A stretch of 64,000 bases of DNA from NCBI RefSeq assembly GCF_021556395.1, contig NZ_JAKGCS010000019.1, positions 62,001-126,000 on the forward strand, read 5' to 3'. Numbering within the stretch: position 1 is the first letter of the stretch; each line of letters opens with the position of its first letter. The stretch is from Acuticoccus kalidii. Its GTDB lineage: Bacteria; Pseudomonadota; Alphaproteobacteria; Rhizobiales; Amorphaceae. Shown in pieces: positions 867-63,302 of the stretch. The translations under genes and the position numbers were made by a program. The notes under the pieces are model-generated. The model ran no database searches and was not told the DNA's origin. It worked only from the letters and a program-made list of their open reading frames with translations.

Positions 867-2036
867 ATGTCTTTCCCTATGTCCAGCTCCCGTATCCTGG
901 CGGCGCTCGCGTTCATCGCCTTCGTCAGTCTCGGCCTTCCGGACGGTCTTCTCGGCGTCGCGTGGCCTTCGATCCGGACGGATTTCACGCGGCCGCTCGA
1001 TTCGCTCGGCACGCTCGTCGCGCTGACGACGATCGGCTATCTCGTGTCGAGCTTCATGAGCGGCGCGGTCATGCGCGTCCTGTCGATCGGCCTCGTTCTC
1101 GCTTTATCGACGGGGGCGGCGGCGACTGCGCTCCTCGGCTTCGCGTTCGCGCCGGCCTGGCCGGTCCTTCTCGCGTGCGGCCTTCTCGCCGGGCTCGGCG
1201 GCGGGGCGGTGGACGCCGCGCTCAACGCCTATGCCGCCCGCCATTTCGATGCGCGTTCGCTGAACTGGATGCACGCCTTTTATGGGGTCGGCGCGACCCT
1301 CGGGCCGATCATCGTGACGGCCGTGCTCGAAATGGGTCTTCAGTGGCAACGGGCCTATCTCGTCGTCGGGTCGGCTCAGCTGGCGCTCGCGATCACCTTC
1401 TTCCTGACTCGTGCGCGGTGGGGCGCCGCGCCGATGACGGTCGCGCATCAGCCGAAATCGGAACGGCTCGTTCACACGCTGAGCCGGCCGATCGTCTGGG
1501 CGGGCATGGCGGTCTTCTTCGTCTATGCAGGTGCGGAGGTCGCGACCGCGCAGTGGAGTTATTCGCTGCTCACCCTCGGGCGCGGGGTGGACGAGACGGC
1601 GGCCGGGCTCTTCGTGACGCTCTATTGGGCGAGCCTTGTCGCGGGCCGCGTCCTGTTCGGCATCGTGGCGCACCGGATCGCGCTCGTGCCGGCGCTGCGG
1701 GTCGCGATCATCGGCTCGATCGTCGGCGCGCTGCTCTTCTGGCTGGAGCCGACGCGGACACTGTCCCTCGTCGGCCTCATGACGATGGGGTTCCTGTTCG
1801 CGCCGGTGTTCGCTTCGCTGATCAGCCTCACGCCGGCCCGTGTCGGGCTCGCGCACGCCGACACGGCGATCGGCTTCCAGATCGCCGCCGCCGGCCTCGG
1901 CGCGGCGTGCCTGACGGGGCTGGTCGGCATCGGGGCGCAGGCCTTCGGGCTCGGGGCGATCGGCGTGTCGATCTTCCTCCTGACGCTCGTTTTATGGACG
2001 GCGTTCGAGCTCTTCATGTGGCGGCGCCCGGTCTGA
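867..2036 (+). CDS. MFS transporter
   Basis: A 389-residue, strongly hydrophobic protein with about twelve membrane segments. It carries the GLPDGLLGVAWPSIR pattern after the first segment, as in sugar-permease-like MFS members (fucose permease/YfkF type). The chosen start is ATG 867, preceded by AAAGG; the frame is open further upstream, but that stretch is Arg/Cys-rich and does not look like transporter sequence. A second Met at 879 is also possible. The substrate cannot be told from sequence. It converges on the dehydrogenase gene to the right with only 6 bp between the two stops and no hairpin terminator visible there. Confidence 0.85.
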   Translation: MSFPMSSSRILAALAFIAFVSLGLPDGLLGVAWPSIRTDFTRPLDSLGTLVALTTIGYLVSSFMSGAVMRVLSIGLVLALSTGAAATALLGFAFAPAWPVLLACGLLAGLGGGAVDAALNAYAARHFDARSLNWMHAFYGVGATLGPIIVTAVLEMGLQWQRAYLVVGSAQLALAITFFLTRARWGAAPMTVAHQPKSERLVHTLSRPIVWAGMAVFFVYAGAEVATAQWSYSLLTLGRGVDETAAGLFVTLYWASLVAGRVLFGIVAHRIALVPALRVAIIGSIVGALLFWLEPTRTLSLVGLMTMGFLFAPVFASLISLTPARVGLAHADTAIGFQIAAAGLGAACLTGLVGIGAQAFGLGAIGVSIFLLTLVLWTAFELFMWRRPV

Positions 2037-56756: not shown

Positions 56757-56831
56757 GGGCGCGTAGCTCAGCGGGAGAGCACCTCGTTCACACCGAGGGG
56801 GTCACAGGTTCAATCCCTGTCGCGCCCACCA
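56757..56831 (+). tRNA. tRNA-Val(CAC)
   Basis: A full cloverleaf: acceptor GGGCGCG pairs with CGCGCCC, the anticodon arm CCTCG/CGAGG encloses TTCACAC (anticodon CAC), the T arm is CAGGTTCAATCCCTG, and CCA is encoded. It reads GTG codons. It is directly followed by a tyrosine integrase gene, so its 3' half is the likely bacterial half of the prophage attachment site. Confidence 0.97.
56790..56831. other. Presumed attL core within the 3' half of tRNA-Val
   Basis: Integrases next to a tRNA usually recombine within the tRNA 3' half and restore it. The exact core cannot be fixed because the other attachment site lies outside the window. Confidence 0.45.
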
Positions 56832-60841: not shown

Positions 60842-61303
60842 TTACGGCTTGTCGGACTTTTTGGCCTTGTTGGGGGTAGCCGCAGCCAGCTCGTCATAAT
60901 CCGCATCGTCGAAGTTGACCGGCGGAATGTGTTCAACGAGCCGGTTAAGGTAGTAATCGATCAGCTCTTTCAGCTCGTCGGGTGTAAGATGGTAGTCGAC
61001 CCCTTCTTCAAGCTTGACGCCACCCCTTCGCGTAGCGCGTTCCTCAGCCCTGTCTGCTCTAATCTTTTCGTCTCGCACCGCCTCCTTAAGGCGATCGATT
61101 TCAGTGTTTAAGTGCAGGGCGCCTTGCTTGAGGTGGTCGACCTCATCAAGAAGGCGATGCCATCCTTCGAGTCGGGCCACGACCTCCGCATTCATCGTCC
61201 GCTGATTTGCCTTCGCCGCGGCCTTCAATTCGTCGCGCATCCCCTCAGGAAGGCGGACGACGAATTTATCTTGGTTTTGCGGAGATTTACGGCTTCCCGT
61301 CAA
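60842..61303 (-). CDS. Arc-type ribbon-helix-helix DNA-binding protein with coiled-coil tail
   Basis: 153 residues from TTG 61303, chosen because AAAGGGG lies six bases upstream and the Arc-like fold starts right after it; upstream Met codons fall inside the operator boxes. Residues about 10-45 (QDKFVVRLPEGMRDELKAAAKANQRTMNAEVVARL) are an Arc/MetJ-type domain. A heptad-rich helix follows, then a C-terminal LTPDELKELIDYYLNRL. It is probably an autoregulated repressor. It is divergent from a second, smaller Arc-type gene. Confidence 0.8.
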   Translation of the reverse strand: MTGSRKSPQNQDKFVVRLPEGMRDELKAAAKANQRTMNAEVVARLEGWHRLLDEVDHLKQGALHLNTEIDRLKEAVRDEKIRADRAEERATRRGGVKLEEGVDYHLTPDELKELIDYYLNRLVEHIPPVNFDDADYDELAAATPNKAKKSDKP

Positions 61304-61321
61304 TTCCAGCCCCTTTAAAAA

Positions 61322-61370
61322 GTGGCTCTGAGCCATTTTTTGCATTGACGCCGCTGTGGCTCTGAGCCAT
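61322..61370. promoter_or_regulatory. Duplicated palindromic operator between divergent Arc-type genes
   Basis: GTGGCTCTGAGCCAT occurs at 61322-61336 and again at 61356-61370, 34 bp apart. Its core TGGCTCTGAGCCA is a perfect palindrome. The right copy falls between TTGACG (61345-61350) and CATGTT (61368-61373), a plausible rightward promoter. Confidence 0.75.
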
Positions 61371-61401
61371 GTTTGCTCTTGCCTACACCGCAGGAGCGCA
61401 A

Positions 61402-61596
61402 ATGTCACCACCCTCTGCTGCAATCCCGACCGAGGAACGGATCACGATCCGCGCACCTCGTGGCTTGCGATCTCAGTTGAAAATCCGTGCGATCCACAAT
61501 GGTCGCTCGCTAAATGACGAAGTTCTGGACCTTATAGGCGCCGGCCTTCGCACCAACGAAAAAGCGGCCGACGAGCGCCAACTCGCCGACCGCTGA
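61402..61596 (+). CDS. Small Arc-type ribbon-helix-helix regulator
   Basis: 64 residues from ATG 61402, with GCAGGAG upstream; an in-frame ATG at 61369 lies inside the operator and is less likely. The body EERITIRAPRGLRSQLKIRA...GRSLNDEVLDLIGAGL is an Arc-family strand-helix-helix with no extra domain. Paired with the larger Arc-type gene, it looks like one half of a two-repressor switch. Confidence 0.78.
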   Translation: MSPPSAAIPTEERITIRAPRGLRSQLKIRAIHNGRSLNDEVLDLIGAGLRTNEKAADERQLADR

Positions 61597-61658
61597 TCTT
61601 CGACCCGCTGTTGAAGCAGCGGGATCAATGACAACCACATCCAAAAAGGACTGTCACA

Positions 61659-61838
61659 GTGACAGATAGCGAATTTGCGCCCAATTGCCAACCCTTTTTG
61701 TTGGCCTCGCTCATCCGTGATCCGATGGTGCGTGCCGCCTTCGAGCGCGCCGATCGCGACAACGGCGCCGCGCCCATATTCGTCCCCGCCAACCCCAAGG
61801 CCCCGGTCCTCACCGGCGGCGAGCTGGTGGAGGCGTGA
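61659..61838 (+). CDS. Hypothetical phage protein, 59 residues
   Basis: It starts at GTG 61659 behind AAAAAGGA and ends two bases before the Rha gene. It contains FLLASLIRDPMVRAAFERAD and a Pro-rich C-terminal half. No family. Confidence 0.6.
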   Translation: MTDSEFAPNCQPFLLASLIRDPMVRAAFERADRDNGAAPIFVPANPKAPVLTGGELVEA

Positions 61839-61840
61839 AC

Positions 61841-62629
61841 ATGGCAGTCGCCGATCCCATCAAATCGTCCGTCACCATGTCGAGCCTCGAGATCGCGGAG
61901 CAGACGGGTAAGCGGCACGACAACGTTATGCGGGATATCCGCAGCATCCTTGTCGAACTGCATGGTGAGGCAGATGCCCTCACTTTTGAGGGCATCTATC
62001 TGGACGCCTACGGGCGCGAAAAGCCCTGCTACCAGCTACCCGAGCGGGAGCTGATGATCCTCCTCACCGGCTACAGCATTCCGCTTCGGGCAAAAGTCAT
62101 TGACCGATGGAAGGAGCTGGAAGAGGCGGCCAACAATTCGGAGCGATCTAAGTTGAACTTAGACCGCTCGTCTGGGTCGGGTTCGTTATCCGTCGCTGAG
62201 TCTCTTCAGATTGTCCGCGAGGCGAAGGACGTCGGCGGCGCTCAAGCTGCGAAAGAGGCATGGCTGGCGCTCGACAATCTTCCGAAGATTCCGTCGTTCG
62301 CAAATGCGTCGGAGCCGGAAGCGGCAAGGCGGTATCCTCAGATCGGAGGACACCCCCTGAAGGCCGGCCAGGGAGTGACCACGACCCGGTTGCGGCATCC
62401 GATCCGGTTCCCGGACGTGCCGTCGTTCGTCGCCAGCGTGATCCGTGACGCCGGAGGGATCGCACGATCCGATCTTATGGCGAAAACCGGCAACTATCTC
62501 CGCAAAGACGATCTGGATGTCGCGATCGACAGGCTCTCGTCCGACGGGGTTGTCATCGCCACGGCCGAGCCGCCGGTGGGCATGATCGGCCGCGCCCGAA
62601 CCGTCTACCATTGGAAAGGCGGCAGGTGA
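61841..62629 (+). CDS. Rha-family phage regulatory protein
   Basis: 262 residues from ATG 61841. Residues about 13-90 (SSLEIAEQTGKRHDNVMRDI...YQLPERELMILLTGYS) match the Phage_pRha domain of P22-type Rha, involved in phage development and host range. The C-terminal part has a separate winged-helix-like segment (SDLMAKTGNYLRKDDLDVAIDRLS). It follows the 59-residue gene directly and is followed by a Tat-signal gene with a one-base overlap. Confidence 0.85.
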   Translation: MAVADPIKSSVTMSSLEIAEQTGKRHDNVMRDIRSILVELHGEADALTFEGIYLDAYGREKPCYQLPERELMILLTGYSIPLRAKVIDRWKELEEAANNSERSKLNLDRSSGSGSLSVAESLQIVREAKDVGGAQAAKEAWLALDNLPKIPSFANASEPEAARRYPQIGGHPLKAGQGVTTTRLRHPIRFPDVPSFVASVIRDAGGIARSDLMAKTGNYLRKDDLDVAIDRLSSDGVVIATAEPPVGMIGRARTVYHWKGGR

Positions 62630-62964
62630 TGACTTCCTCCGCTCTTTCCCGTCGGTCCTTCATTGCCGGCACAGCCATCGTCGCTTCTGTCCCTATCGCC
62701 GCTGAGGCAGTCGGGGATGGGCCTATCATCCAGCTCTATCAAGAGTTCCGGCGGCGCGAAGCCGCTATCGACAACTTGCCTAGGGACGCGACACAGGCCG
62801 AGTCCGACTGGATGCGCGCCCCGCTGGACGAGGCGATGGCGACCACCCCGGACGGCAACGCCGAGTGGGCCGCCATCATCACGATGGCCATGTGGGCCAC
62901 CGGTGCTGATGCGGATCCAGGGTGGAGCGAAGTGGCAGAACACTGCCGCGCGAGGGTCGTCTAA
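62629..62964 (+). CDS. Small phage-encoded protein with Tat-like signal
   Basis: 111 residues. It begins MTSSALSRRSFIAGTAIVAS, a twin-arginine motif plus hydrophobic stretch, ending near AEA. The rest is a soluble helical domain with several Trp. No family is known. It overlaps the Rha stop by one base and the CI-like gene's 3' end by four bases on the opposite strand. Confidence 0.65.
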   Translation: MTSSALSRRSFIAGTAIVASVPIAAEAVGDGPIIQLYQEFRRREAAIDNLPRDATQAESDWMRAPLDEAMATTPDGNAEWAAIITMAMWATGADADPGWSEVAEHCRARVV

Positions 62965-63302
62965 GCCTGATCCTCGACGTGGTTGGTCTTGGAGGTGTGC
63001 GCATCCTCCTGCTCGCGCTTCCACTCCAGCCACGCCTGACGCAGGGCCATCGGCAGATTGTTGGTGTCCCCAAGGTACAGGAAGTCGAGGCTCAGCCCGA
63101 AAGCTCTATTCAGCGCAATTGCGCCATCGAGCGACAGGCGATGCGTGCCAGTCTCCCAATTCGAGAGCTGCGAGCGCTTCGCGTTCAGGATCTCGCCGTA
63201 GCGGTCCTGGTTCATCTGCTCCACGACTTTGCGGTGCCAGGTGACCCGTTCCGCGACGTCCGCCCAGGGGCGTTCGACGTTCTCTGACTTGGTTCTTGCC
63301 AT
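62961..63302 (-). CDS. XRE-family (CI-like) repressor
   Basis: 113 residues with a helix-turn-helix at about 30-65 (YGEILNAKRSQLSNWETGTHRLSLDGAIALNRAFGL). It has no LexA-type cleavage domain, so induction would not be by autocleavage. No ribosome site is seen, and a TAAATT box ends seven bases before the ATG, so the message is probably leaderless. It is divergent from a Cro-like gene with palindromic sites between. Confidence 0.8.
   Translation of the reverse strand: MARTKSENVERPWADVAERVTWHRKVVEQMNQDRYGEILNAKRSQLSNWETGTHRLSLDGAIALNRAFGLSLDFLYLGDTNNLPMALRQAWLEWKREQEDAHTSKTNHVEDQA

Follow-up and report, generated by a model that had tools for sequence, protein, structure and literature searches.

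A divergent pair of Arc-type genes in a prophage

The window analysed here, a stretch of 64,000 nucleotides from Acuticoccus kalidii, contains two divergent genes for RHH proteins. P1 (60842–61303, minus strand) encodes a long Arc/Mnt-type protein of 153 residues with a helical tail and begins at TTG; P2 (61402–61596, plus strand) encodes a short Arc-type protein of 64 residues. Both open reading frames had been taken as Arc-type in the initial annotation and each indeed exceeds the 20.4-bit cut-off of the Pfam Arc family (PF03869), P1 with 48.9 bits (E = 5.9e-13) and P2 with 30 bits (E = 4.8e-7). The nearest solved structure to P2 is Mnt (1mnt, E = 7.7e-4). The TTG start of P1 aligns with the ATG starts of its relatives and has the Shine-Dalgarno sequence AAAGGGG (61310–61316, minus strand), and a second in-frame ATG falls within the left of the two boxes described below. 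The Shine-Dalgarno sequence of P2 is AGGAG (61392–61396, plus strand). The long tail earlier ascribed to one partner only is modelled in P1 as a single long helix spanning residues 20–92 (single-sequence structure model, pLDDT approximately 80–90). A second Arc-type protein, 33% identical to P1, is encoded in the same genome (contig C8, 7739–7978).

Behind P2 lie a 59-residue open reading frame (61659–61838, plus strand) that matches no family and a gene of the Rha/Ant antirepressor type (61841–62629, plus strand), which matches Phage_pRha (PF09669) at 4.1e-18 and the PHROG anti-repressor Ant at 4.2e-21, antirepressor being here a family name only. Further right, and transcribed towards these genes, is the CI-like gene that the pair had been said to neighbour, encoding an HTH repressor of about 112 residues (62964–63302, minus strand). 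No peptidase domain was found in this protein by family search, so that SOS self-cleavage is unlikely and prophage induction through the antirepressor is plausible. An integrase gene adjoins tRNA-Val at 56757–56831, and beyond the window there are helicase, primase, terminase, portal, tape-measure and tail-fibre genes. The region is the immunity region of an integrated prophage. A toxin–antitoxin interpretation of the pair was dropped, since neither gene adjoins a toxin and the antirepressor gene comes next.

Repeated boxes and their recurrence in phages

The 98 bp between P1 and P2 hold two identical 15-mers, GTGGCTCTGAGCCAT, of the form GGC-N5-GCC, at 61322–61336 (box 1) and 61356–61370 (box 2). 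Their start-to-start distance is 34 bp, as first described, and the palindromic 13-mer core, TGGCTCNGAGCCA, has no copy in the 5.59-Mb genome apart from these two. The right-hand box had also been placed between a −35 and a −10 element, and this arrangement stands: TTGACG (61345–61350, plus strand) and the presumed −10 CATGTT (61368–61373, plus strand) flank box 2 with a spacer of 17, and the −35 precedes the 13-mer core by 12 nt, as in relatives. The −10 is weak, fitting at three of six positions, although its register equals exactly that of the CAYNNT of relatives, and a stringent sigma-70 promoter scan reported nothing in the P1–P2 intergenic region, this promoter included; nor was a promoter identifiable for P1. 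No second class of palindrome was found between P1 and P2, the window has no third box of the kind present in many relatives, and the LexA-like box GTTC-N7-GTTC shows no excess and has no exact copy in the switch.

Is the arrangement found elsewhere? The initial annotation had proposed looking for the box in related prophages. Among 385 genomes of the class the exact pair is confined to its own, and a pattern scan yielded no viral contig and one actinobacterial metagenome-assembled genome, where a profile search gave no Arc match. A generic double-box pattern (TGGCTNNNAGCCA twice) matched 22 viral contigs, many of them with Arc open reading frames on both sides. As that sample had been selected by the box, viral contigs were next searched by protein only, using an alignment of long-partner RHH domains, which gave 80 loci chosen blind to the boxes; in all, more than 100 phage loci were compared. 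A divergent short Arc-type partner is present at 51 of these 80, and 34 of 52 distinct pairs carry two to four copies of their own near-palindromic 13-mer. The latter count comes from fixed thresholds, some single-box calls showing imperfect repeats by eye, and from viral contigs that are unevenly sampled and interrelated. In dinucleotide shuffles of 59 intergenic regions, at least two matching palindromes arose 0.11 times in all.

Box sequence varies among the phages, but geometry is preserved. Boxes 1 and 2 are often about 36 bp apart and boxes 2 and 3 about 24 bp; in 18 of 23 cases TTGAC precedes the following box by 12 nt, and it is always directed towards the short partner; and box copies outside the intergenic region were found in none of 40 relatives. 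The window, with its boxes 34 bp apart and 12 nt from TTGAC to box, matches this geometry. At ten loci the ATG of the long gene lies exactly 2 nt past box 1 with no visible Shine-Dalgarno sequence, and the same is seen at an eleventh if the first of several candidate starts is counted, hinting that the Mnt-type repressor may be translated leaderless there. The window differs from these loci, having either TTG with a Shine-Dalgarno sequence or ATG within the box.

These regularities bear on whether the boxes, instead of being operators, could form hairpins that are followed by runs of T and terminate or attenuate transcription. A pattern scan does list both as terminator-like, with stems of five to seven pairs. 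However, such stems are weak, and neither the fixed TTGAC spacing nor the way in which box sequence tracks the β-strand of the long protein (see below) would be needed for hairpins; we regard a terminator function as very improbable indeed.

The two partners have fared differently. The long partner is conserved and the short partners are very heterogeneous. With P2 as seed no relative was found in viral contigs, and its best matches among 199 genomes of the order reach 37–38% identity; lacking close homologues, P2 is assigned its role by position. Behind the short gene, matches to antirepressor families are frequent: phrog_63 accounts for 25 of 104 open reading frames, and the Pfam families Rha, KilAC and ORF6N for 13, 12 and 7, tallies that count open reading frames and not loci, since these were picked greedily without a gene caller. 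Of the 25 families met most often behind the long gene, none is an antirepressor family.

The 3′ end of P2 is overlain by a terminator-like hairpin in antisense orientation (61563–61594, minus strand), with 14 pairs followed by TTTTCGTT. At 16 of 58 loci a similar antisense hairpin is found close to where the short gene ends, against one of 58 in sense orientation (p = 2.7e-4), with control frequencies of 19 in 290 shuffles and six of 58 for antisense hairpins behind the long gene. This enrichment suggests that sar-like antisense RNAs exist beyond P22-like phages. We offer the hairpin in the window as a candidate end of such an RNA, a lead to which the predicted fold of the transcript (z = −5.6) also belongs. 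An antisense promoter is not claimed, the signal being not significant among the 16 loci (median shuffle p of 0.28, two of 16 below 0.1).

Which protein reads the boxes

The nearest solved structure to P1 is AmrZ of Pseudomonas aeruginosa (3qoq), with which it is identical over the 12-residue stretch DKFVVRLPEGMR. In AmrZ, residues K18, V20 and R22 contact two 5′-GGC half-sites 5 bp apart, in TGGC-AAAAC-GCC, and affinity falls approximately 10-fold when GGC is changed to GTC (PMC3325190). The box of the window, TGGC-TCTGA-GCCA, has the same GGC-N5-GCC geometry, and AmrZ likewise has two sites, which lie at its own promoter. AmrZ differs in being a chromosomal regulator without a divergent partner or antirepressor. 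Combining a K-x-V-x-R β-strand with a GGC-N5-GCC site, P1 has what would be expected of an AmrZ-type reader of GGC.

Covariation among the phage loci points the same way. In the box-blind sample, distances between long partners over the arm and β-strand correlate with distances between their boxes (Mantel r = 0.455, p = 2e-4), in contrast to those over their helices (r = 0.065, p = 0.31), the protein's own helices being the only control for ancestry. For the arm and β-strand of the short partners the correlation is weak (r = 0.13, p = 0.047). At the contact triad, Arc positions 9, 11 and 13, a long partner with K-[V/I]-R is accompanied by GGC half-sites at 20 of 20 loci, and one with K-M-R by GTC at six of six. 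This rule was written down before new loci were fetched with a K-M-R-seeded query, whose tails consist partly of generic letters and which served as a search seed only. It held in the new box-bearing pairs, with K-[V/I]-R beside GGC in five of five and K-M-R beside GTC in seven of seven, leaving out of the count one further locus with GGC that was parsed as F-V-R, probably by a slip. P1 has the triad K-V-R. Taken with the likeness to AmrZ, the covariation makes P1 most likely the protein whose operators the repeated boxes are. The rule further predicts that P1 with V15 replaced by methionine would come to prefer TGTCNNNNNGACA boxes.

The initial annotation had instead seen operators shared by both proteins, with P1 and P2 binding the same two boxes and repressing each other in a second bistable toggle like that of CI and Cro. 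Two RHH proteins do flank the boxes, and the control region of each gene is overlapped by a box; the correlation for short partners is marginally significant; and Arc of phage P22 acts on both promoters (PMC11016777). Sharing is nevertheless not supported by the triads: short partners follow no triad–box rule, the single triad K-M-R being met beside GGC, GTC and TGCCA boxes alike, and P2 lacks the GGC-reading K-V-R, its own R-T-R being seen elsewhere beside GTC boxes. The boxes track the DNA-contact residues of the long partner and not those of the short one, and a shared-operator toggle now seems to us rather unlikely.

A variant in which P1 and P2 would form hetero-oligomers on the boxes, P2 for example poisoning or modifying P1, has in our estimation an outside chance of being right. 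The proteins belong to one family with a dimeric fold, and in a genome of the same genus two Arc-type domains are joined in one polypeptide, the second of them with the R-T-R of P2; on the other hand, the short partners are very heterogeneous next to a conserved long one. The two-domain protein (locus L005 of genome G002, 1147–1644, minus strand), whose tandem RHH domains contain QDQFVVRFP and ETRLTVRIP, resembles a natural single-chain Arc.

The locus also has a perfect 15-bp palindrome, CTGTCACAGTGACAG, at 61651–61665, overlapping the GTG start of the 59-residue open reading frame. The genome has no second copy of its core, TGTCACNGTGACA, and this core is similar to the GTC-class boxes that other phages carry. 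It may possibly be an operator of P2 or of another RHH protein.

A probable immI-type control module

We consider it highly probable that the locus is a prophage control module of the immI type (mnt-arc-ant), in which P1 owns the repeated boxes and box 2 serves to repress the promoter of P2 and the antirepressor gene. The sequence itself shows what the genes are and how they are arranged, the boxes and their uniqueness in the genome, the register of the promoter, the recurrence among phages and the β-strand/box rule. From this we infer, along the following lines, that the boxes are bound and the promoter repressed, that P1 regulates itself, how the antirepressor acts and what P2 does. P1 would stand in the place of Mnt, as a tailed RHH repressor divergent from an antirepressor operon, and would bind the GGC-N5-GCC boxes as dimers of dimers. 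At box 2 it would block the promoter of P2 and the Rha-type antirepressor gene, so that the antirepressor would stay switched off in a lysogen; through box 1, just upstream of P1, it would regulate its own synthesis. P2 would take the place of Arc, on the same transcript as the antirepressor, and probably damps the antirepressor promoter, that of P1 or both, limiting the burst as Arc does, through contacts that the sequence does not reveal. Were P1 absent or depleted, antirepressor would be made and would inactivate the adjacent CI-like repressor with its lack of a peptidase domain. By analogy, the module would serve to control an antirepressor and would not be a toggle in its own right.

On balance, we are inclined to extend this to temperate phages, as a widespread class of immI-type modules in which the long RHH partner owns all two to four boxes; specificity comes largely from one β-strand residue behind the lysine, V or I reading GGC and M reading GTC; and extra layers of control over the antirepressor come from the short partner, which changes fast, and from an antisense RNA like sar. 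If specificity does depend largely on that residue, a single substitution together with coordinated rewriting of the boxes could yield a new immunity specificity. The rule is falsifiable, concerns recognition by RHH repressors, ties the specificity of phage immunity to a solved structure, that of AmrZ, and makes operator prediction possible for unannotated prophages.

In P22, Mnt represses ant, and Ant inactivates the prime repressor. The genes mnt, arc, sar and ant make up its immunity I region, or ‘ant moron’ (PMC2629481, PMC11016777). In the P22 genome (NC_002371), mnt (minus strand) and arc (plus strand) are themselves divergent, 90 bp apart and with ant behind arc. A face-to-face pair is therefore the classic arrangement, and the contrast with P22 initially drawn was mistaken. 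The likeness is in fact close: a tailed Mnt-type and a short Arc-type RHH gene diverge from an interval of some 90–98 bp; an antirepressor gene follows the short one; an operator lies inside the −35/−10 spacer of the promoter for the short gene and antirepressor (Oarc within Pant in P22, box 2 here); and a terminator-like hairpin in antisense lies close to where the short gene ends, at a place equivalent to that where sar of P22 ends. Differences are that the antirepressor of the window is of Rha type and not P22_AR, that a 59-residue open reading frame intervenes, that the tail of P1 is longer and that P22 has two unlike operators, Oarc and Omnt (GGTCCACGGTGGACC), where the window repeats one sequence.

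According to their deposited annotation, Paracoccus phage Pyei1, Edwardsiella phage GF-2, Salmonella phage SPN3UB and Klebsiella phage ST11-VIM1phi8.1 also have opposed long and short Arc genes, the short one followed by an antirepressor-type gene, as in the window, although their box sequences are different and their proteins distant from P1 and P2. The open-access literature returned only papers on P22-type immI when searched for a divergent Arc pair with repeated operators. The immI region of P22 is the model antirepressor switch, with its two unlike operators; our results suggest that temperate phages commonly have a simpler and more general form, in which the tailed RHH partner reads a single operator that is repeated at a fixed distance.
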